The notes under the pieces are model-generated. The model was not told the DNA's origin, did no database searches, and worked only from the letters and a program-made list of their open reading frames with translations. Position numbers and translations under genes: made by a program. This document shows positions 3,807-30,404 of a stretch of 36,471 bases of DNA, in pieces (the stretch's first letter is position 1; each line of letters starts with the position of its first letter). The stretch covers positions 1 through 36,471 of the IMG/VR virus record IMGVR_UViG_3300050013_000227; one strand, given 5' to 3'. The stretch is from a virus.

Positions 3807-3988
3807 TTCAAAGGATTAAATGCTTTTTCGGAAGACATCAAATTGATAACTTAGGTGGTGGTTCTTGGAACTATTGTATTAATTGTGGGAAAGTATGGCA
3901 AGAATCGTATGTTGTTCCTGGGTATCTTATTTACCGAGGACGTTTAAAAGACAAACATAAGCAAGGAAATAGATATTACTGGAATTAG
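3803..3988 (+). CDS. DUF1660-like small zinc-binding protein
   Basis: A 61-residue basic protein: MIQRIKCFFGRHQ at the N-terminus, then NYCINCGKVWQ. The pattern C-(3)-GRH ... CxxCG matches the small phage proteins grouped as DUF1660, which probably bind one zinc through Cys and His; their role is unknown. The start at 3803 follows GAGGGTTTAGG and overlaps the previous stop. A related protein is encoded at 8268-8507. This is the last gene before the RNA-rich stretch. Confidence 0.7.
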   Translation: MIQRIKCFFGRHQIDNLGGGSWNYCINCGKVWQESYVVPGYLIYRGRLKDKHKQGNRYYWN

Positions 3989-4084
3989 ATCGGGTAGTGT
4001 AGTCCGGTAACACACTTCGTCGAAGCCGAAAAGCTCGGTAGCTACTTCGTCGATGAATCGTCGGTTCAACTCCGACCCCTTTCA
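3988..4084 (+). tRNA. tRNA-like RNA of uncertain identity
   Basis: The segment can be folded like a tRNA. The D arm is GTGT (3997-4000), loop AGTCCGGTA with the usual GG, then ACAC (4010-4013). The T arm is GTCGG-TTCAACT-CCGAC (4060-4076), followed directly by a seven-base acceptor strand, 4077-4083, which pairs with 3988-3994 at five of seven positions. An anticodon stem can be drawn at 4015-4019/4027-4031 with GAA in the anticodon position, but base 33 would be C rather than U and one pair fails. About 28 bases then precede the T arm, so it may have a long variable region, an intron or a duplication: the decamer ACTTCGTCGA occurs twice, at 4014 and 4044. The amino acid is not assigned. Confidence 0.4.
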
Positions 4085-4087
4085 TTT

Positions 4088-4134
4088 GCATGAGCAAGCT
4101 AGAGGAGCAGTGGGTTCAAGTCCCACCTTGTGCA
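4088..4134 (+). ncRNA. 47-nt minimal tRNA-like element (acceptor plus T arm only)
   Basis: Bases 4088-4094 (GCATGAG) pair over seven positions, two of them G-U, with 4127-4133 (CTTGTGC). Directly inside the 3' strand is a perfect T arm, GTGGG-TTCAAGT-CCCAC (4110-4126), and an A at 4134 sits in the discriminator position. Only 15 bases (4095-4109) fill the place of the D and anticodon arms; they can form a three-pair hairpin, GCT/AGC. It starts four bases after the previous tRNA-like element. It could be a truncated tRNA, a processing decoy or part of a larger RNA. Confidence 0.4.
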
Positions 4135-4243
4135 TTTCAATGAAGCGGAGAATAGTGCGTAATGTTCGATGTAGAGGGACGGTACGACGGAGCCGATAGA
4201 CTTTGCGATAGGAGAGGAATACCTGTCGCTGATCCGTAACTAA
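4135..4243 (+). ncRNA. Structured non-coding segment between tRNA-like elements
   Basis: No ORF with a ribosome-binding site is present. G+C is clearly higher than in the flanking genes. The strongest structure is an eight-pair hairpin, 4205-4212 (GCGATAGG) with 4222-4229 (CCTGTCGC), loop AGAGGAATA. ACGGA and TCCGT around it can extend the fold. No T arm is found, so this is not a tRNA by itself; it may be the 5' part of the RNA that follows. Confidence 0.3.
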
Positions 4244-4396
4244 TGGAAGTTATTCAAGATAGCAAAGAGGCATCCAAGGGGATGTGTATTCTATCCTGAC
4301 ACCAAGCCCGAAGGGACAATCCTAGGTCGGTTCGAACGGTATGAACTTGTCAGTTGAACGATAAATACTTGGTAGGTGCAAGTCCTACACTTCCAA
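4244..4396 (+). ncRNA. 153-nt RNA closed by a tRNA-like acceptor and T arm
   Basis: TGGAAGT (4244-4250) pairs perfectly with ACTTCCA (4389-4395). A complete T arm, GTAGG-TGCAAGT-CCTAC (4372-4388), abuts the 3' strand as in tRNA, and A4396 is in the discriminator position. Instead of D and anticodon arms there is a large branched domain: TTCAA/TTGAA (4253-4257 with 4354-4358), GATAG/CTATC (4258-4262 with 4291-4295) enclosing CATCC/GGATG (4271-4275 with 4280-4284), a CCC-GAA-GGG hairpin at 4307-4315, and GACAA/TTGTC (4315-4319 with 4347-4351). A tRNA-like end carrying a long insert recalls tmRNA in outline, but no tag reading frame is seen and archaea lack tmRNA. A tRNA with introns remains possible. 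Confidence 0.45.
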
Positions 4397-4640
4397 TTTC
4401 ACAGTTTGTATGTTTCAAAGTGAAACACAATGACTATCAGATCTCAATACTCTGGTGCAAGGGATATACTGATACGAGCGTTAAGTCCCAGTAACGAAAC
4501 ACGATCGAATAGCGAAACATTCAGAAGGCACTTGCGAGAAGCCAGTTTTGATTCTGGTGGATGACTCGACGAGTAAAGGGAGCAAAACCCCCTCTGCGTA
4601 ACGTGGACGTACGGTATAAATATCCACGCTCCTGCTTTCT
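4397..4640 (+). ncRNA. Structured non-coding RNA region
   Basis: No gene is supported here. Several helices can be drawn by eye: TGTTTC/GAAACA (4411-4427), TGCAAG/CTTGCG (4456-4461 with 4531-4536), CGTTA/TAACG (4479-4496), GCCAG/CTGGT (4541-4558) with an eight-base loop TTTTGATT, ACTC/GAGT near 4563-4573 and CGTGGA/TCCACG (4602-4628). The loop TTTTGATT on a five-pair stem also occurs in the RNA at 11414-11530, suggesting related elements. The RNA boundaries are not known, and the last hairpin overlaps a possible promoter. Confidence 0.35.
4615..4622 (+). promoter_or_regulatory. Possible TATA box for the helicase operon
   Basis: TATAAATA lies about 40 bases before the ATG at 4662, at the distance that would give a short leader containing the GAGGTGA ribosome-binding site. 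It falls inside the loop of a CGTGGA/TCCACG hairpin, so it could instead be part of the RNA. No clear BRE is seen upstream. Confidence 0.35.
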
Positions 4641-4661
4641 TTAAAATAAGAGGTGAAATAT

Positions 4662-4925
4662 ATGCAACAAAATAATTTAGAGGGAATCTTAAATCCCGAT
4701 GCAAAAACTTTAATTGAGAAATATCCTGATGCAAGATGGCTCTATAATCAATTAAATGGAGTTTATGCAGACTATGAAACTTTGTTTGTGATTCAAAATA
4801 TAGAATATGGACATCAATTGATTGTTCCAAATACACATTTACCCAATCATAGAAAAGCTTGGAGGATATTAGAAAAAGTTGAATCGAAATATCATGATAT
4901 ACATTATAAGAAGGTGATGTGGTAA
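4662..4925 (+). CDS. Small protein of unknown function preceding the helicase
   Basis: An 87-residue protein (MQQNNLEGILNPDAKTLIEK). The ATG at 4662 is preferred over the in-frame GTG at 4653 because GAGGTGA lies immediately upstream, overlapping that GTG. No metal site or membrane segment. Its stop overlaps the ATG of the SNF2-like helicase (TAATG), so it may be expressed and act with it, but its family is not recognised. Confidence 0.7.
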   Translation: MQQNNLEGILNPDAKTLIEKYPDARWLYNQLNGVYADYETLFVIQNIEYGHQLIVPNTHLPNHRKAWRILEKVESKYHDIHYKKVMW

Positions 4926-13253: not shown

Positions 13254-14420
13254 ATGTTAAGGGCATATAAGTATCGAATGTATCCAACCAAAAACCAAAA
13301 AGAAATGATTAACAAACATTTCGGAGCTTGTCGATACGTATATAATTGGGGATTAGAACAGAAAATCCGAACATACAAAGAGAACGGAAAATCAATCAGC
13401 CGTTTTACTCTTAACAAAGAAATAACACTACTCAAACAAAGCGAATCATGGATTAAGGAAATCAACAGTCAATCATTACAGGGAGCTACACTAAACTTAG
13501 ATAACGCATTCACAAAGTTTTTCAGAGAGAAAGGAGGATTTCCAAAGTTCAAATCAAAGAAAAACGGGGTACAATCATTCAATGTGCCACAGAATTATAA
13601 AGTTGATTTCGATAACAATGAAATATACCTTCCTAAGATAGGATGGATGAAAACAAAATTACACCGCAAATTCAAAGGTAAACAGCAAACAGCAACAATC
13701 TCTATGACAAATACTGGTAAATATTATATCAGTATTCTAATTGATGATGAACAATCCTTACCTAAGAATGTAAAATTCAATCAAAAAACCACTGTAGGAT
13801 TGGATATGGGTTTAAACCATTTTCTGATAACTAGTAATGGTATTAAGGTTGATAATCCACGCCCACTTAAAACAGAACTACGTAAACTTAAACGTGAACA
13901 ACGGAAGTTATCACGTAAACAGAAAGGTTCAAATAATCGTGAGAAACAAAGGTTAAAACTCAGTTGTATTCATGAACGAATACGAAACATACGTGAGGAT
14001 TTCCAACATAAACTTAGTAAATCTATTGTATGTGAGAATCAAGCAATAGCAATAGAGAAACTGAACATTAACGGCATGATAAAAAATCATTACCTTGCAC
14101 AGAGTATCAGTGATGTTGGCTGGGCAGGGTTCATGGATAAACTGAAATATAAATGTGAGTGGTATGGTAAAACATTACTCCAAATTGGACAGTTTGAACC
14201 ATCCACTAAAATATGCAGCAATTGTGGACATCACAATCCTGATTTGAAATTACATCATAGAAAATGGGTTTGTCCAGTCTGTAGTGTAAATCATGATCGT
14301 GATATCAATGCTTCAATAAATATACGTGATTTTGCACTGGATAAACAGAATCTTATTAGTACCGTAGGAACTACGGAAATTAAAGCTTCTCAGAAAAAAC
14401 CACAAAAGTGGATTCAATGA
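13254..14420 (+). CDS. tnpB: TnpB, RNA-guided endonuclease of an IS1341-type element
   Basis: A 388-residue TnpB, the ancestor-like relative of Cas12 that cuts DNA with an omega-RNA guide made from the element's right end. The N-terminus (YKYRMYPTKNQKEMINKHFG) is typical. The split RuvC motifs are complete: VGLDMG with D184, AIEKLN with E268, and DRDINAS with D348/D350. The zinc ribbon is CSNC (321-324) and CPVC (340-343). The length is normal and there are no frameshifts, so it is probably active. It keeps the insertion at its site by cutting restored targets. The sequence style resembles methanogen TnpBs. Confidence 0.95.
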   Translation: MLRAYKYRMYPTKNQKEMINKHFGACRYVYNWGLEQKIRTYKENGKSISRFTLNKEITLLKQSESWIKEINSQSLQGATLNLDNAFTKFFREKGGFPKFKSKKNGVQSFNVPQNYKVDFDNNEIYLPKIGWMKTKLHRKFKGKQQTATISMTNTGKYYISILIDDEQSLPKNVKFNQKTTVGLDMGLNHFLITSNGIKVDNPRPLKTELRKLKREQRKLSRKQKGSNNREKQRLKLSCIHERIRNIREDFQHKLSKSIVCENQAIAIEKLNINGMIKNHYLAQSISDVGWAGFMDKLKYKCEWYGKTLLQIGQFEPSTKICSNCGHHNPDLKLHHRKWVCPVCSVNHDRDINASINIRDFALDKQNLISTVGTTEIKASQKKPQKWIQ

Positions 14421-22729: not shown

Positions 22730-22892
22730 AGCTCAAGGATGGCTTTGGTGTGGTTTAAGATCTTTGGATATGTGCGAAGGATGTGAGGAATGTGTGGATC
22801 AAACAGATGATAATGAAATATTGGAACCGACGAAAAATGCAACAAAGATCAAAGACATTGATGGAAGCATTACTGAAAGATTCAAAGAATAA
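22689..22892 (+). CDS. Small Cys-rich protein of unknown function
   Basis: A 67-residue protein (MDPDLIKTKLKNYEAQGWLW) behind GAAGGAG. Cys residues occur at WCGL and MCEGCEEC, four in all, which could form a metal site. It overlaps the membrane-protein gene by about 40 bases and ends just before the UDG-PHP gene. Confidence 0.55.
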   Translation: MDPDLIKTKLKNYEAQGWLWCGLRSLDMCEGCEECVDQTDDNEILEPTKNATKIKDIDGSITERFKE

Positions 22893-22903
22893 TGAGGGAA
22901 ACC

Positions 22904-24481
22904 ATGGATCAATTAAATAACGAGATAAGAGAATGTAAATTATGCGAGATATCTCAACAGACCCCAAAAAAAGTAATAGGAAAAGGTGTAGGTGATCCTA
23001 AATATCTTTTTATTGGTCTTAATCCTGGTAAAGAAGAAATGCAAGAAGGTATCCCATTTGTAGGGCCTTCTGGAAAACTTCTTGATAGATGGATAGAATA
23101 TCTTGGTATTAAAGAAGATGAATATGCTGTTGTAAATTTAATAAAATGTTTTACAAACAACCAGTCAGAGTTGAACGGTGAGGAAGTAAAGAATTGTAAA
23201 CCATTTTTAGAACAACAAATAGAATTTCTAAACCCACAATATTTTATTTTATTAGGTGCAATACCAGTAAAAACACTAATGGGGCTAAGGGAAATCACTA
23301 AAATAACAGGTAAAATCTTTACAAGAAATGATCAAATGAAACCATACCATCATTTTATTACTCTTGCACATCCATCATATTATGTGAGACAAGGTGGAAA
23401 AGGATGGGATGGGATGTTAGAACCTGTAAAACGATTCATTAATAATCCACAGGGAATAACAAAACCTTTTAATAAAAGGTGGGATGAAGTAACTCCAATT
23501 CAATCACTTGAAGTAGAAATAAAAGAAGTTGATGTGGATAAAAAGATAAAAGAAGTGGCTGCGAAGGTAGTAAAATATCCAAAAGAACAATCATATGTTC
23601 CTATTCATGTACACGATACTTTTTCAATTAAGGATTCGTGTGTACAAACAAAAGATTTAGCAAAGTACGCAAAAGAAATGGGATTCAAAGCTATTGGAGA
23701 AACAAACCATGGAAGTATATCAGGACTGTATGAATTCCAACAGAATTGTGATAAAGAAGGAATAAAGCCTATTCTAGGCGTGGAATTTTATGTTCACGAT
23801 GAAAAATATGGTGATGATAAAGAAAAGAGATATCACATCGTAGCTCTTTGCAAGAATGAAATCGGATTGAAAAATTTATTTAAACTTGTGGATATTTCAT
23901 ACAGGGAAAAATTCTATCGAAAGCCAAGGATTGAGTTAAAAGATCTCTTTAAATATGGAGATGGCCTTGTAATTACAACAGCTTGTAGTAGTGGAATAGT
24001 AGCAATGCATTACTTAAATGGAGAACCAAATTTTGCTCAACAAGTTCTGTTAGATTTAAAATATAGATTTGAAGATGATTTATATGTTGAACTCCAACCT
24101 CATTTCGAATATAAAGATCAAAAGAAATTGAATCCTATGTTAATTGAACTTGCAAATAAGTATGACATAAAAACGATAATTACAACAGATGCCCATTATT
24201 TAAAAATGGAAGATGAAGAAATTCACAAAAGTTTGAAAGCTATCGCATATCATCAAAAATTCGAAGAAGCAGGTTTTGGGCTTTCTACCAACTATTTAAT
24301 GAGTACAGAAGAAATAAAAAAATATTCTTTACTTACCAATATTGATAAGGATACTATTGAAAAATCTTTGCAGAATACAATTTCTATCTCAGATAGATGT
24401 AATGCTCGAATAGAAAAATATGAAAATGCATTACCTAAATTTACTATAACAGAGGATCAAGATGATCAAAAAGATTTGTAA
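22904..24481 (+). CDS. Family 4 uracil-DNA glycosylase fused to the PHP domain of DNA polymerase III alpha (DnaE piece 1 of 3)
   Basis: A 525-residue fusion. Residues 1-185 are a family 4 uracil-DNA glycosylase: iron-sulfur Cys 11, 14, 82 and 98, FIGLNPGKEE (36-45), PFVGPSGKLLD (51-61) and LAHPSYY (154-160). After a 45-residue linker, residues 230-515 are a PHP domain like the DnaE N-terminus: PIHVHDTFSIKDS (H235, H237), GETNHGSISGLY, TDAHYLKM. Its metal ligands look kept, so it may be a proofreading exonuclease. The protein ends where E. coli DnaE passes from PHP to palm; the polymerase continues at 25513. The start at 22904 follows GAGGG. The glycosylase could remove uracil just ahead of synthesis. 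Confidence 0.88.
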   Translation: MDQLNNEIRECKLCEISQQTPKKVIGKGVGDPKYLFIGLNPGKEEMQEGIPFVGPSGKLLDRWIEYLGIKEDEYAVVNLIKCFTNNQSELNGEEVKNCKPFLEQQIEFLNPQYFILLGAIPVKTLMGLREITKITGKIFTRNDQMKPYHHFITLAHPSYYVRQGGKGWDGMLEPVKRFINNPQGITKPFNKRWDEVTPIQSLEVEIKEVDVDKKIKEVAAKVVKYPKEQSYVPIHVHDTFSIKDSCVQTKDLAKYAKEMGFKAIGETNHGSISGLYEFQQNCDKEGIKPILGVEFYVHDEKYGDDKEKRYHIVALCKNEIGLKNLFKLVDISYREKFYRKPRIELKDLFKYGDGLVITTACSSGIVAMHYLNGEPNFAQQVLLDLKYRFEDDLYVELQPHFEYKDQKKLNPMLIELANKYDIKTIITTDAHYLKMEDEEIHKSLKAIAYHQKFEEAGFGLSTNYLMSTEEIKKYSLLTNIDKDTIEKSLQNTISISDRCNARIEKYENALPKFTITEDQDDQKDL

Positions 24482-25136
24482 ACAATGTGGGAATGAATTC
24501 GAAACAATTCCTTCTCGGATTAGAAATGGTAGAGGGAAATATTGTTCAAGAAAATGTTTTCATGAATTTACAAGAAACAAAGAAATAAGGGTTTGTCAAA
24601 AATGCGGGAATGAATTTGAGGCACATCTTTCTGATATTAAAAGAGGAAGAGGAAAATTTTGTTCAAGAAAATGTTTTCATGAATCTAGAGAAAAGAAAAT
24701 AAGGGTTTGTCAAAAATGCGGGAATGAATTTGAGGCACATCTTTCTGATATTAAAAGAGGAAGAGGAAAATTTTGTTCCAACAAATGTCGTGGGAAAGCA
24801 AGATCTGGTGAAAATCATCCACTTTGGAAAGGTGGAAAATCTTATGAACCTTATTGTATTCTTTTCAATGAAGAATTTAAAGAGCGTGTTCGTGAATTCT
24901 GGGAAAGAAAATGTGGAATATCTGGTAAAGATGAAAAAGATGAAGACAAAAAATTGTCAGTTCATCATGTAAATTACGATAAACAAAGTTGTTGTAATAC
25001 AACCGTTCCATTATTTATACCATTAAGTCGTGAATATCATAATAAAACAAATTTTAACCGTGATTATTGGGAAGAAATGCTTACAAATTATATTATGATT
25101 TGGTTCAATGGCGAATGTTATGAGGTGAAAGAATGA
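24462..25136 (+). CDS. HNH homing endonuclease with repeated zinc fingers, inserted in the polymerase gene
   Basis: A 224-residue protein. Three tandem modules of about 38 residues (CKQCGNEFETIPSRIRNGRG-KYCSRKC, then two RVCQKCGNEFEAHLSDIK-RGRGKFCS copies) are treble-clef-like fingers that should bind DNA. The C-terminal half is an HNH nuclease: ENHPLWKGG, CILFNEEFKERVREFWERKC, LSVHHVNYDK (catalytic HH), and NTTVPLFIPLSREYHNKTN. The first 20 bases lie inside the end of the PHP-encoding ORF. It ends in GAGGTGAAAG, the ribosome-binding site of the next gene. The protein at 29721-30404 is a close relative. Confidence 0.88.
   Translation: MIKKICKQCGNEFETIPSRIRNGRGKYCSRKCFHEFTRNKEIRVCQKCGNEFEAHLSDIKRGRGKFCSRKCFHESREKKIRVCQKCGNEFEAHLSDIKRGRGKFCSNKCRGKARSGENHPLWKGGKSYEPYCILFNEEFKERVREFWERKCGISGKDEKDEDKKLSVHHVNYDKQSCCNTTVPLFIPLSREYHNKTNFNRDYWEEMLTNYIMIWFNGECYEVKE
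24583..24778 (+). repeat. Tandem 82-bp direct repeat within the HNH endonuclease gene
   Basis: Bases 24583-24664 recur exactly at 24697-24778, an offset of 114 bases or 38 codons. The repeat encodes one zinc-finger module. Identity at the DNA level, including third positions, points to a recent in-frame duplication; the first module (from 24470) is more diverged. Confidence 0.85.
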
Positions 25137-25396
25137 GTGAATTTGATAAAAATGGAAAAGAAATAAAAGCGTTAGCTGATGAAATGGAAAAACAAAATAA
25201 GAAAACAGAAGAGAATTTAAAAGTTATAGGAACTTTTCTAGGAACAATAATTGGTCTTGCAATTGCAACACTTGTAGTATTTTATGCATTCCATTTAGGT
25301 TGGTACAAATCTTTTATTGCAGCTGCATTAATACTTATAATGATAAAAGTAAATAGTATAGCTCGAAAAGTAAGTGTGTTATATGAAAAAGTGTAG
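25133..25396 (+). CDS. Small protein with two membrane helices between polymerase pieces
   Basis: An 87-residue protein: a charged N-terminal helix (KALADEMEKQNKKTEENLK), then IGTFLGTIIGLAIATLVVFY and FIAAALILIMIKV, two membrane segments, and a short basic end. It begins in an overlap with the HNH gene (ATGA) and overlaps the next ORF. It is unrelated to DNA polymerase and was probably carried in with the insertion. Confidence 0.7.
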   Translation: MSEFDKNGKEIKALADEMEKQNKKTEENLKVIGTFLGTIIGLAIATLVVFYAFHLGWYKSFIAAALILIMIKVNSIARKVSVLYEKV

Positions 25397-25520
25397 TTGT
25401 GGAGGAGAATACCTTCCTCTTAGGGAGGGGAATGAACTTCTCGGAAGGATTCCAGTTGAATTTAAATGTAATAAATGTGGGAAGATATGGGTCGAATATA
25501 GGAGGATAAAACGTGGATAG
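25383..25520 (+). CDS. 45-residue zinc-ribbon protein between polymerase pieces
   Basis: A short ORF (MKKCSCGGEYLPLREGNELL) with CSCGG and CNKCGKIW, four Cys placed as in a zinc ribbon. It overlaps the membrane-protein gene by 14 bases and its end contains the AGGAGGATAAAAC site for polymerase piece 2, whose GTG start lies within its last codons. Role unknown; it may simply couple translation into the polymerase. Confidence 0.6.
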   Translation: MKKCSCGGEYLPLREGNELLGRIPVEFKCNKCGKIWVEYRRIKRG

Positions 25521-26589
25521 TTCAGAATATTTGAAACAGAGATGTCGTGAGAGGGCAGTAAAACTTAACCTTCCAGTTGAGTACGAAGATCGTTTTGATC
25601 GTGAATTTGAAGTTATTGAGGGAAAAGGATTTGTGGATTATTTTTTAATCCTCGCTGATATTGTGGACTGGGCAAAGAGTCAAAAGATAGAAATCGGGCC
25701 ATCTAGGGGAAGTGCCGCTGGCTCTTTGGTCTCTTATTTACTTGGGATTACTCAGATTGATCCTATAAAATATAATCTATTATTTGAAAGGTTCCTTGAT
25801 CCAAATAGAGATGCATTTCCAGATATTGATCTTGATTTTCAAAAATCAAGAAGAGGAGAGGTTCTTGAATACATAAAAGAAAAATATGGAGAAAACCATG
25901 TTTGTCAAATAGTAAATTTTGTTACATTTAAACCAAGACAGACTATTAAAGATGTATGTCGTATATTTGATGTACCTTTCCAAGATGTAAATAGGATGAC
26001 GAATCTTTTATCTGACAAAGTGAAGACGCTTGAAGAGGCAATGGAAATTCCAGAGATAAATTCTTTTTTTAAAAAGAATCCTCAGATGAAAAGAATAGCT
26101 TTTGCACTTGAAGGAGGTATCCGTCAGCAGTCGGTTCATGCAGCTGGCATGGTCATTACTCCAGGAGAAATATCAGAATATATCTCTATAGTAAAGATTA
26201 AAGATTCCATTTGCTCTTGCTTTGATAAGAACGGTGTTGAAGACTTAGGTTTACTTAAACTTGATGCGTTGGGTTTAAGGACGTTAGATGTAATCGCAAC
26301 AACAAAAGAATTAATAAGACAAGATCCTGCTCCGCATGGTGTAGGAAGAGGGATAGGAATAGATCTTCCTACTGAATTTGATGATCCAGAAGTATATAAT
26401 GCAATGAAAGAAGATGGAAATCTTGGGTGTTTCCAAATAGAAACAAAAGGATTGTCAAAATTATTAAAAGATTTAGATGTCCAAGATTTTGAAACTTTAT
26501 ATCATGTAACAGCACTTTATCGACCTGGGCCTCTGAACTCTGGCCAGACTAAAGAATACATAAGGAGGAGTAAAGATGGGGATAGGTAA
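25513..26589 (+). CDS. DNA polymerase III alpha, catalytic palm and partial fingers (DnaE piece 2 of 3)
   Basis: A 358-residue protein that begins exactly where the PHP piece leaves off (SSEYLKQRCRERAVKLNLP). It contains IGPSRGSAAGSL (61-72), the catalytic pair in PDIDLDF (D104, D106), the third acid in LLKLDALGLRT (D251), RQQSVHAAGMVI and ALYRPGPLNSG. All C-family polymerase catalytic residues are present. It starts with GTG behind a strong AGGAGG. It ends with YIRRSKDGDR, corresponding to a point in the fingers domain of E. coli DnaE shortly after RPGP; the missing rest is at 27261. The last codons (AGGAGGAGTAAAG) are the ribosome-binding site of the inserted LAGLIDADG gene. Confidence 0.92.
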   Translation: MDSSEYLKQRCRERAVKLNLPVEYEDRFDREFEVIEGKGFVDYFLILADIVDWAKSQKIEIGPSRGSAAGSLVSYLLGITQIDPIKYNLLFERFLDPNRDAFPDIDLDFQKSRRGEVLEYIKEKYGENHVCQIVNFVTFKPRQTIKDVCRIFDVPFQDVNRMTNLLSDKVKTLEEAMEIPEINSFFKKNPQMKRIAFALEGGIRQQSVHAAGMVITPGEISEYISIVKIKDSICSCFDKNGVEDLGLLKLDALGLRTLDVIATTKELIRQDPAPHGVGRGIGIDLPTEFDDPEVYNAMKEDGNLGCFQIETKGLSKLLKDLDVQDFETLYHVTALYRPGPLNSGQTKEYIRRSKDGDR

Positions 26590-27277
26590 AGGAAATCATG
26601 GAAATCAAAAACAATATTATAATTATAATAGAAATTTCTTTGAAAAAATAGATAATCCAGTAAAAGCATATATTCTTGGTTTTATAGTAAGCGATGGCCA
26701 CATTCGAAAAGATTCTAGTGGATATTATCTTATGTTTAGTATAAAAAAAGAAGATAAATATCTATTAGAATCGTTTTGCGTTGTTTTAGGAGCTTCGATT
26801 CATGCACAAAATTTAGTTAAACGAAAAAGTTCAAATGATGGAAGTTATTATTTACGATTTGCCTCAAAGAAACTTGTGTGTGATTTGTATTCATTGGGAG
26901 TTCCTATTAAAAATAAATCACTTAAAGCTGTTCCAATTGATTGTAAAAAATATAACCAAGATTTTTGGAGAGGAATGTTTGATGGAGATGGGTCAATAGG
27001 TAAAGCTAGTAAAAATCAGAAAACTCCTTCTTTGAGGATAACTTTAACAGGAACTCAAGAAGTTTGTGAAGGATTTGAAAAATATTTAGGATATAATGGT
27101 TATATGCAAAAACATAAAAATTGTTATCAATATCAAAAAACTGTTTCAAAATTAAAAGATATGGAAACAATTTATTCAAAAATTTATCTAAATTGTTCAA
27201 TCCCATTTATCTATGAGAAAAAGGATAAATTTGTTGAAATAATAAAAGAGAGGGAAATTTATGAAAAAAATAATTGA
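26576..27277 (+). CDS. LAGLIDADG homing endonuclease splitting the polymerase fingers domain
   Basis: A 233-residue LAGLIDADG endonuclease: KAYILGFIVSDGHIRK (near residue 25) and FWRGMFDGDGSIGK (near 125) are the two catalytic helices. It is a relative of the enzyme at 21303-21980. It overlaps polymerase piece 2 by 14 bases at its start and piece 3 by 17 bases at its end, so it has almost no DNA of its own outside the coding frame. Stop codons and separate starts rule out an intein. Such free-standing endonucleases cut copies of the gene lacking the insertion. Confidence 0.9.
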   Translation: MGIGKGNHGNQKQYYNYNRNFFEKIDNPVKAYILGFIVSDGHIRKDSSGYYLMFSIKKEDKYLLESFCVVLGASIHAQNLVKRKSSNDGSYYLRFASKKLVCDLYSLGVPIKNKSLKAVPIDCKKYNQDFWRGMFDGDGSIGKASKNQKTPSLRITLTGTQEVCEGFEKYLGYNGYMQKHKNCYQYQKTVSKLKDMETIYSKIYLNCSIPFIYEKKDKFVEIIKEREIYEKNN

Positions 27278-28667
27278 ACATCCTATTTATCAAAAATTAA
27301 CAAAGGATACCAAAGGACTTGTTATTTTTCAAGAAACAATGATGCAGCTTTGTAATAAGCTTGCGGGAATTCCATTAGAAGAAGCATATCGAATTGTTAA
27401 ATTAATTTCTAAATCAAAGAAAGAAGAATTAAAAGAATATAAAAAGAGATTTATCGAAGGTTCTATTTTGAATGGGGTAGAAAAAGAAGATGCTCTGAAT
27501 ATTTGGCAATCAATCGAGGAATCAGGTTCTTATGCGTTTAATAAAAGCCATGCTGTAGGATATTCAGCACTTTCATATCAAACAGCATGGTTGAAATACT
27601 ATTATCCGAAGCAATTCCTAGTAGCGTTGATTCATCACCCAAAACCTCAGAAAGATGAAAAAGAAAAAATGGTTTCTCAAGCTATTCGTGAATTAAGAAA
27701 GAATGGTTTTGAAGTAAGGGCACCAAATATCAACAAATCTAAAAAAGATATCTATATCGCTGATGATGGAGAAATCTACATGGGCTTGTCGAGTGTTGCG
27801 GGGTGTGGAGATAAAGCTGCTGATGAGATTATTTCGAACCAACCCTATGAAAGCTTTGATGATTTCCTTGTAAAAGTTCAGAAAAGAAAAGTTAATATTA
27901 AGATTCGGAAAAATCTTATTCAAGCTGGAGCGTTCGATAAATTTGGTAGAAGAGATGAGCTTTATTATTCACTCAGTGATGAAACCTTTGAAGAATGGGA
28001 TAAAGAAGAGATACTTAAAAGAGAGATGCTTGTTCTCGATTTACCTTCAAAAGAACCTTTGATTAACTATTATGAGAATAAATACCCTCATATAGAATTA
28101 ACTGATATTGATCAGATTGATTTTTCAGACCCTATCGGTGAGGTTTGGATAAAAGGAATTATAACCAATTTTGTTACAAAGAAGGCATCGACTAAACTCG
28201 AAGAAGCAATAGACGTATTAAAAGAAATGGTCTACTTTGACATCGACGATGGAACAATGAAGGTCAATTGTTTCATGTCTCCTGAAATGTTTGATTTATA
28301 TAAGCCTTTGATTGGAGATGGAGAAGCTGTTATTTTGAAAGCTCATACCTTCGGGCAGAAAGTTTATATAGATGGAGTGTTAAACTTAACAAAAGAAAAC
28401 AATAGTTCACTCGAAAAATATTCGATTGATCGACGACAGAAAGAGGTCGACGATATGCATAGAAAACCAAGGTGGTCTATCAATGCAGTCCAGTCCATTA
28501 CATATCATGTTTCAAAGAATGGGAAAAGATATGGACGAATAACCTATGATGACGGCAATTTTGGACTATGTTTTAATATGAAAGTAGAAGATATACAACC
28601 AGGAGAAATTATTTGTTGGACAACAAGTAAAAATCCATTTATTAATATTGTAAAGAGGGTGAAATAA
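27261..28667 (+). CDS. DNA polymerase III alpha, C-terminal part (DnaE piece 3 of 3)
   Basis: A 468-residue protein. KKIIEHPIYQKLTKDTKGLV then IFQETMMQLCNKLAG continue the fingers domain; SYAFNKSHAVGYSALSYQTA matches the conserved GYGFNKSHSAAYALVSYQT of bacterial DnaE. Then come the duplex-binding helix-hairpin-helix region (GLSSVAGCGDKAADEI, IRKNLIQAGAFDKFG) and an OB-fold (GEVWIKGIITNFVTKK, YFDIDDGTMKVNCFMSP). The ATG lies inside the endonuclease gene behind GAGGGAAATTT. No beta-clamp motif is certain. Its expression as a separate chain implies that the polymerase assembles from three polypeptides. Confidence 0.92.
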   Translation: MKKIIEHPIYQKLTKDTKGLVIFQETMMQLCNKLAGIPLEEAYRIVKLISKSKKEELKEYKKRFIEGSILNGVEKEDALNIWQSIEESGSYAFNKSHAVGYSALSYQTAWLKYYYPKQFLVALIHHPKPQKDEKEKMVSQAIRELRKNGFEVRAPNINKSKKDIYIADDGEIYMGLSSVAGCGDKAADEIISNQPYESFDDFLVKVQKRKVNIKIRKNLIQAGAFDKFGRRDELYYSLSDETFEEWDKEEILKREMLVLDLPSKEPLINYYENKYPHIELTDIDQIDFSDPIGEVWIKGIITNFVTKKASTKLEEAIDVLKEMVYFDIDDGTMKVNCFMSPEMFDLYKPLIGDGEAVILKAHTFGQKVYIDGVLNLTKENNSSLEKYSIDRRQKEVDDMHRKPRWSINAVQSITYHVSKNGKRYGRITYDDGNFGLCFNMKVEDIQPGEIICWTTSKNPFINIVKRVK

Positions 28668-29011: not shown

Positions 29012-29724
29012 GACTCTCCAAATCTGCTATTTTAAAATATCTTAATTGTCCAGCTGATTTCAAATATGATTATATCTTAGATTTCAGACATCAAAGAGAA
29101 GCACCTGGCGAGGATTCTCCCTTAACAATTGGGACTAACATACATCAGATTTTTGAGGATTTTTATAAGAGCCCACTCCTTGAAACATTAGAAGAGCCTT
29201 ATTATGAAAACATATTAGAGATATTATATACCCTTAAAAATGCACAAAAATATGAAAATCATATGGAGAATTTTGCTGAATTCAATACTCACCAAATCAA
29301 AACGAAAGGAATTGGCAGATGGTTGCCCTTAGATTTAGAAATGGAAGTGTTTGATAAAGAGTTAAGATTTTTGGGATATATTGATAGAGTTGATTTAGAA
29401 GAAACCGGATTGAGGGTTATAGATTATAAATCATCTAAAAAAGATAAGCCAGTTAAACATTATCTACTTGAACTCGCTCTATATGCATTAGTATATGAGA
29501 GGTTAACAGGAAACAAAGTCTATGATGCTGGTATTTATTTCAGCAATACAGGAAAATTAAGAACAACACCAATCACAGAAGAGGATAAAGAAAAAGCAAT
29601 GCAAACTATCTTTAATGTAAGAGAAGCTATTAAAATGAAACATTTTCCACCAAAGTCTAATTACTTTTGTAGATTTTGTGACAATCAAAATATTTGCACT
29701 ACTGATATTGAGGCGAGTTTTTGA
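29008..29724 (+). CDS. Cas4/RecB-like PD-(D/E)xK exonuclease with iron-sulfur Cys
   Basis: A 238-residue nuclease. Catalytic motifs are IGTNIHQIFEDF (H46), LGYIDRVD (D126), VIDYKSSK (D139, K141) and LLELALYALVYE (153-164). Cys 14 and the C-terminal cluster CRFCDNQNIC (221, 224, 230) form the four-Cys iron-sulfur site of Cas4 and AddB-type enzymes. Length and motif order match Cas4-like single-domain nucleases. No cas genes or CRISPR repeats are nearby, so a role in processing viral DNA ends with the Sak4-like protein is more likely than adaptation. Confidence 0.88.
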   Translation: MRLSKSAILKYLNCPADFKYDYILDFRHQREAPGEDSPLTIGTNIHQIFEDFYKSPLLETLEEPYYENILEILYTLKNAQKYENHMENFAEFNTHQIKTKGIGRWLPLDLEMEVFDKELRFLGYIDRVDLEETGLRVIDYKSSKKDKPVKHYLLELALYALVYERLTGNKVYDAGIYFSNTGKLRTTPITEEDKEKAMQTIFNVREAIKMKHFPPKSNYFCRFCDNQNICTTDIEASF

Positions 29725-30404
29725 TTTCTAGAATTTGTCAAAATCCAGATTGTGGAAAAGAATTTAAAACAATTCCTTCTCGAATCAAAACAGGAAAAGG
29801 AAAATATTGTTCGAAACAATGTGGAGGCTTGATGAAAAGAATACGGATAAAAAGAATTTGTCAAAATTGTGGAGATAAATTTGAGGTAGTGCCTTCAAGA
29901 ATCAAAAAGGGTGGAGGGAAATTTTGCTCAAAACAATGTTATAGTTTAGCTCAGAAAAAAAAAGTAAAAAGAATATGTAAAAAATGTGGGGAAGAATTTG
30001 AAGTGAAATTTTCAGTGGTTAAAAAAGGACAAGGAAATTTTTGTTCAATATCTTGTGGATTATCTGGTGAAAATAGTAGTTTTTGGAAAGGTGGGATTTC
30101 ATATGAACCTTATTGTGTTCTTTTTAATAGAGGGTTTAAAGAACGTGTTCGTGAATTTTGGGGAAGAAAATGTGGAATATCGGGAATTACTGAAAAAGAA
30201 AATGGACGAAAATTAGATGTTCACCATGTAAATTATGATAAACAAAGTTGTTGTAACACAAATATCCCTTTATTCATTCCTCTTTCAAAAAAATACCATA
30301 AAAAAACAAATGGTAATCGTAACTATTGGGAAGAAATGTTAACTAATTATATTATGATTTGGTTTAATGGAGAATGTTATCTGCCAAAGGAGGATTTAAA
30401 ATGA
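29721..30404 (+). CDS. HNH homing endonuclease with zinc-finger repeats between nuclease and primase genes
   Basis: A 227-residue protein starting at a TTG that overlaps the nuclease stop. Three finger modules (ICQNPDCGKEFKTIPSRI, ICQNCGDKFEVVPSRIK, ICKKCGEEFEVKFSVVKK) lead to the HNH part: NSSFWKGGISYEPYC, LDVHHVNYDK and NTNIPLFIPLSKKYH. It is a paralogue of the protein at 24462-25136 with about the same length. Its last codons contain GGAGGATTTAAA, the ribosome-binding site of the primase gene. It separates two complete genes. Confidence 0.87.
   Translation: MISRICQNPDCGKEFKTIPSRIKTGKGKYCSKQCGGLMKRIRIKRICQNCGDKFEVVPSRIKKGGGKFCSKQCYSLAQKKKVKRICKKCGEEFEVKFSVVKKGQGNFCSISCGLSGENSSFWKGGISYEPYCVLFNRGFKERVREFWGRKCGISGITEKENGRKLDVHHVNYDKQSCCNTNIPLFIPLSKKYHKKTNGNRNYWEEMLTNYIMIWFNGECYLPKEDLK

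Follow-up and report, generated by a model that had tools for sequence, protein, structure and literature searches.

The virus fragment analysed here (the window, 36,471 nt at its full length) contains a stretch of about 650 nt (3988-4640) without a credible gene, flanked by one ORF that ends at 3988 and another that starts at 4662. An earlier note, made from the sequence, had described the region as free of genes and richer in G+C than its surroundings. Both descriptions hold: the longest plus-strand ORF inside comprises only 48 aa, and the G+C content is 46.9%, compared to a mean of 32.1% for the record and a maximum of 40.0% elsewhere in it. This G+C excess tops that of all other ORF-free gaps of more than 300 nt, both within this record and across the 59 related loci that were scanned. 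The analysis supports tRNA-like elements of a minimal or aberrant kind in a virus of archaea (Table 1), and the best explanation, to which we assign a probability of roughly one half, is that an operon of an archaeal, methanogen-like virus includes here three RNAs that derive from tRNAs and do not decode.

Table 1. Features of the ORF-free locus and its two neighbouring ORFs, in window positions.
Feature	Position	Strand	Acceptor strands (pairing)	T arm	Further characteristics
Upstream ORF, 74 aa	3764-3988	+			last base of stop codon is first base of e1
e1	3988-4084	+	3988-3994/4077-4083 (5/7, two mismatches)	GTCGG-TTCAACT-CCGAC, 4060-4076	Rfam tRNA score, archaeal tRNA-Glu identity, fold
e2, 47-nt minihelix	4088-4134	+	4088-4094/4127-4133 (7/7, two G-U)	GTGGG-TTCAAGT-CCCAC, 4110-4126	15-nt linker between acceptor and T arm; A4134
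Spacer, ORF-free, G+C-rich	4135-4243	+			fold z -0.9; no tRNA features
e3	4244-4396	+	4244-4250/4389-4395 (7/7, Watson-Crick)	GTAGG-TGCAAGT-CCTAC, 4372-4388	two arms; A4396
3' part, ORF-free, G+C-rich	4397-4640	+			no T arm, no family match, fold z +0.6
Downstream ORF	4662-4925	+			ATG 4662 after AGGTG; longest frame from GTG 4653

The three T arms placed against paired acceptor strands, as previously claimed, were found at exactly the positions proposed, with the acceptor of e1 being paired at five of seven positions. With T arms defined as a 5-bp stem plus the loop consensus, these three are the only ones on both strands of the 36,471-nt record, and among 5000 dinucleotide shuffles of the region one T arm occurred in 21 and two in none. 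All three T stems are fully paired (5/5), the loop of e3 carrying G55 when tested against the loop TTCRANY, and downstream of each T arm follow the seven acceptor nucleotides, an A, and then TTT. The stems share the pattern GTnGG/CCn'AC, in which the varying pair is C-G, G-C, and A-T; this would be consistent with maintenance of the stem, if the copies are related. In the predicted ensemble of the full transcript, the acceptors of the three elements are minor. An anticodon arm (5 bp with a 7-nt loop containing U33) is absent from e1, e2, and e3, and the elements are therefore unable to decode. Thus, the earlier statement that none of them forms an ordinary cloverleaf stands in that no usable anticodon arm exists in any of them, but has to be amended for e1, which scores as a tRNA in Rfam (RF00005; 39.5 bits at a gathering threshold of 29), whereas e2 and e3 gave no tRNA match. 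ARAGORN called neither a tRNA nor a tmRNA at the locus and no ordinary tRNA within the 36-kb fragment. Cloverleafs appearing at a low ARAGORN threshold overlapped one another and were dismissed as noise; a tmRNA, with its tRNA-like domain and tag reading frame, was likewise rejected, as the tmRNA mode of ARAGORN and Rfam yielded no match.

In e1, the 5' acceptor strand is followed by T8-A9, a canonical D arm with GG (3997-4013), an extended hairpin (4016-4057) in the place of the anticodon arm, the T arm, and an A73-like A4084. Its first 20 nt are identical at 18 positions to archaeal tRNA-Glu(CTC) of Halobacteriota, including the D-arm signature GTGTAGTCCGG, which occurs in ordinary tRNAs of 24/60 genomes, of one archaeal phylum, while the reversed pattern occurs in none. 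Compared to archaeal tRNA-Glu, however, e1 has no anticodon arm but a replacement of 28-46 nt, and its acceptor is broken. The sequence thus shows e1 to be a real tRNA derivative of tRNA-Glu origin.

By our own reading of the predicted fold, the extended arm of e1 contains an approximate 3-4-3 bulge-helix-bulge. With an archaeal host, this would fit the suggestion of the earlier note that the elements are intron-containing archaeal tRNAs, which would be spliced at bulge-helix-bulge sites into ordinary tRNAs. However, in tests confined to single excisions and a limited split model, no single excision from e1 yielded an anticodon stem-loop with U33, and the best spliced tRNA model for e3 was equalled by 143 of 300 shuffles, on which ground a multi-intron tRNA was rejected for e3 as well. 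The interior of e2, at just 15 nt, leaves no room for an intron. We therefore regard intron-containing tRNAs as very improbable.

The term 'minimal' tRNA, also proposed before, proved apt for e2, a 47-nt acceptor/T-arm minihelix whose linker contains a 3-bp hairpin. Minimal tRNAs of mitochondria retain an anticodon arm, while e2 has none whatever. With respect to length, e2 is comparably short to the armless or minimal mitochondrial tRNAs cited in PMC7609411. The 121-nt body of e3 is predicted to fold into two arms (4258-4295 and 4296-4353), followed by an 18-nt single strand, and 4145-4241 within the preceding spacer may form a junction in the model. Relative to shuffled sequences, the folds of e1, e2, and e3 reached modest z-scores of -2.0, -1.4, and -1.3, respectively.

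The fold of the whole region (3988-4640) was no better than that of shuffles (z -0.34), and since the 3' part does not exceed them either (z +0.6), the many nested helices previously read from the region carry no weight. These values also speak against one large ornate structured RNA incorporating the tRNA-like parts, as the earlier note had envisaged. GOLLD and ROOL are large ORF-free phage RNA loci often situated close to tRNA islands, and the linker of GOLLD may hold tRNAs (PMC12286853); as a large, ORF-free, and G+C-rich stretch of 650 nt, the locus resembles them. However, it displays no comparable fold, and Rfam returned no match to GOLLD, ROOL, or any other large RNA in the region even at E<=5, although the same library detected GOLLD in a viral locus (L097) that served as positive control. 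An RNA of this kind is hence highly unlikely here.

An archaeal host is likely, as had been suggested, because the fragment encodes archaeal-type proteins and the D arm of e1 is of the archaeal tRNA-Glu type. The thymidylate synthase scores above the curated cutoff for the methanogen equivalog, and its nearest relatives in genomes (31-49% identity) belong to methanogens and other Euryarchaeota. In addition, the fragment encodes an XPF/Hef-type nuclease, relatives of which occur as free-standing proteins in methanogen genomes, and contains a weak match to the primase PriS; some other genes, e.g., that for Pol III alpha, are phage-like. Archaeal tailed viruses such as HGTV-1 carry tRNA genes (PMC8651126). 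The window resembles these viruses in its tRNA-type genes, but theirs are annotated as decoding, whereas the window contains no ordinary tRNA.

The DNA polymerase III alpha of this virus is distributed over three ORFs (22892-24481, 25513-26589, and 27261-28667; together 22892-28667), which abut in the protein family alignment and are split by a pair of HNH-like zinc ORFs and a LAGLIDADG ORF. The first of them bears an N-terminal domain resembling family-4 uracil-DNA glycosylases. The insert between the first two pieces (24464-24824) differs from the corresponding stretch (4293-4683) of L059, a 99% identical relative, and the ORF at 24462-25136 has a paralogue at 29721-30404, both of which point to an active mobile insert. 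The fragment also carries a TnpB gene (IS605 OrfB, Cas12f1-like) at 13254-14420, with TnpA being absent among the ORFs examined.

Searches for homologues of the locus by blastn gave no credible match in INPHARED (50,697 phage records, E 1e-5, no match), 42 viral records, and sets of 12 and 545 archaeal genomes. The only two matches at E<=0.001 were attributed to chance: both were short and isolated, one (L214) lying in apparent coding sequence and the other (L215) having no tRNA-like context. The double T-arm arrangement of e1 and e2 had no match in viral contigs, and a long body combined with a D arm of the e1 type matched once, at an ordinary tRNA-Ser. A single-sequence covariance model of e3 recovered only e3 itself along with weak matches, several of which fell on T arms already known, and nothing in 152 archaeal genomes. 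Scans with the helicase, polymerase, and thymidylate synthase identified L059 as the only close relative, and L059 is without this region. The genome searches also bear on whether the elements are 3'-end remnants of tRNAs kept as integration (att) sites, as tRNA genes are often used by archaeal proviruses (PMC8651126). The elements possess 5' acceptor strands as well, however, and no tRNA 3' end was matched at E<=0.001 in the 545 archaeal genomes, a search in which BLAST would miss short partial matches; we consider this origin extremely improbable.

A comparable architecture was found in other viruses. On predicted folds, the closest described relative in architecture is rnaC of phage T4, a 139-nt RNA of the T4 tRNA cluster whose annotation names it a small stable RNA, species 1. 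Like the window elements, it combines a tRNA-type acceptor and T arm (CCGGG-TTCGAAT-CCCGG) with a replaced anticodon half, long arms being predicted in the positions of the D and anticodon arms. By our own reading of the fold, its acceptor has two mid-stem T-T mismatches, and the e1 acceptor likewise has two mismatches. The two systems nevertheless differ, as rnaC is a single element of a bacterial phage, lies beside real tRNAs, has a much stronger fold (z -4.5), and shares no sequence similarity with the window.

As an exact 17-mer, the T arm of e3 occurs in 117 viral stretches; in the 80 of these that were examined, it lies inside ARAGORN tRNAs in 36 and outside in 44. A family termed F1, consisting of six viral contigs (L228, L232, L248, L249, L293, and L261) in which ARAGORN calls none of the elements, combines a 7-bp acceptor with a D arm into which a hairpin is inserted, a variable arm, and a T arm, the anticodon arm being replaced by a 4-bp hairpin whose loop has 3-4 nt. 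In the alignment of the six sequences, 99% of cells are paired, compared to at most 43% for slid structures, and 13/32 pairs change on both sides, a number reached by none of 500 shuffles. F1 had no match in INPHARED. It shares with e3 the 7-bp acceptor and the same GTGCAAGTCC loop in the T arm, but differs by its tRNA-Leu-like class II body, occurs in other viruses, and has no sequence homology to the window.

Across 266 viral loci, most of them retrieved with T-arm or tRNA-cluster patterns, for which reason the rates are not genome-wide, 441 T arms lay outside the tRNAs called by ARAGORN, and 185 of these had a 7-bp acceptor with near-perfect pairing no more than 200 nt away, whereas 26.5 were expected; these counts include some ordinary tRNAs missed by ARAGORN and some elements with an insert beside the anticodon, where an intron is possible. 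The excess extended, in the same loci and with the same reservations, to bodies longer than 62 nt (99 vs 15.8 expected) and shorter than 38 nt (22 vs 5.1 expected). By chance, a 7-bp acceptor occurs at about 6% of T arms.

Acceptor/T-arm minihelices are substrates of RNase P and RNase Z. If the locus produces three tRNA-derived, non-decoding RNAs, each element would have retained the acceptor/T-arm half, to be recognised by RNase P, RNase Z, and the CCA-adding enzyme of the host, while the anticodon half would have given way to a long hairpin in e1, been almost wholly lost from e2, and been exchanged for the two-armed body in e3. As e1 overlaps the upstream stop codon and a scan restricted to sigma-70 type promoters gave none beyond chance around it, e1 is probably co-transcribed with the upstream ORF as part of a polycistronic transcript. 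The maturation enzymes would cut the elements from this transcript at their tRNA-like ends and add CCA, and the freed elements might remain stable in the manner of T4 species 1 RNA. Most speculatively, they might occupy tRNA-binding or tRNA-cutting proteins, e.g., by acting as decoys for host defences that target tRNAs, or might serve solely to mark the sites of cutting between the neighbouring mRNAs and the RNA of 4397-4640.

We counted in favour of this explanation the three T arms where about none is expected, the perfect acceptors of e2 and e3, the Rfam score and tRNA-Glu identity of e1, the shared A-TTT ends, the lack of a canonical anticodon hairpin, the G+C excess in an AT-rich genome, the fold of T4 rnaC, the acceptor excess over the 266 viral loci, and the compensatory changes in F1. 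Counted against it were the lack of a homologue, the acceptor mismatches of e1, the modest z-scores, the minor share of the acceptors in the ensemble, and the chance rate of about 6% for a 7-bp acceptor. The main rival is decay, in which the elements would be remnants of two or three tRNA genes, one of them for tRNA-Glu, whose anticodon halves were lost through deletion and insertion and which no longer function. In e1, the still recognisable tRNA-Glu sequence, the broken acceptor, and a partial 15-nt duplication (4013-4027/4043-4057) agree with decay, as do the modest folding scores and the frequent recombination by homing elements in this genome. However, the T stems have stayed intact in all three elements and the acceptors perfect in two, the G+C content remains high in a genome of 32% G+C, and a like architecture is conserved with compensatory change in other viruses and in one case is a stable T4 RNA. 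On balance, decay appears the less likely of the two.

An anticodon-less architecture as such is known but little studied, and the pattern seen more widely across the tRNA regions of viruses offers the more interesting lead. Tentatively, the window may be an archaeal-virus example of a large class of conserved RNAs, tRNA-like but anticodon-less, that go unannotated in bacterial and archaeal viruses. These would range from minihelices to bodies of more than 100 nt, be made by tRNA maturation, and be used for purposes other than decoding, e.g., titration of tRNA-directed defence. If so, the window would hold three of them in series with no ordinary tRNA nearby, and T4 species 1 RNA, annotated without a stated function, would turn from a curiosity into a class member. 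Such elements are overlooked by ARAGORN. The usual explanations for tRNA genes in viruses, codon use and resistance to tRNA cutting, each require an anticodon; because elements without the anticodon half cannot decode, they would make the purpose of viral tRNAs directly testable.

Several further arrangements were observed in viral tRNA regions. In many of them, including L137, L138, L093, and L121, T arms are spaced at 40-57 nt, which leaves too little space for full tRNAs. Eight loci (L083, L090, L095, L121, L143, L261, L265, and L282) contain tRNA-like elements with near-constant ends, AGTCAGG...TACAGGTTCGAATCCTGTCCTGACT, and wholly different inner parts of 58-149 nt. An 85-nt element without an Rfam match in L045 (7975-8059) recurs with 88% identity in L132 (4127-4211), in both cases between tRNA-like genes. 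On the minus strand of L183 (2202-2595), three tRNA-like genes have inserts of about 40 nt between D and T arms, and one of them contains a second T-arm-like hairpin. Finally, phage tRNA genes in L148 (3997 and 5133) and L078 (6508) carry inserts of about 80 nt beside the anticodon, which start with a hairpin like NNGGAGTAAACCNN and possibly represent an undescribed small tRNA intron.
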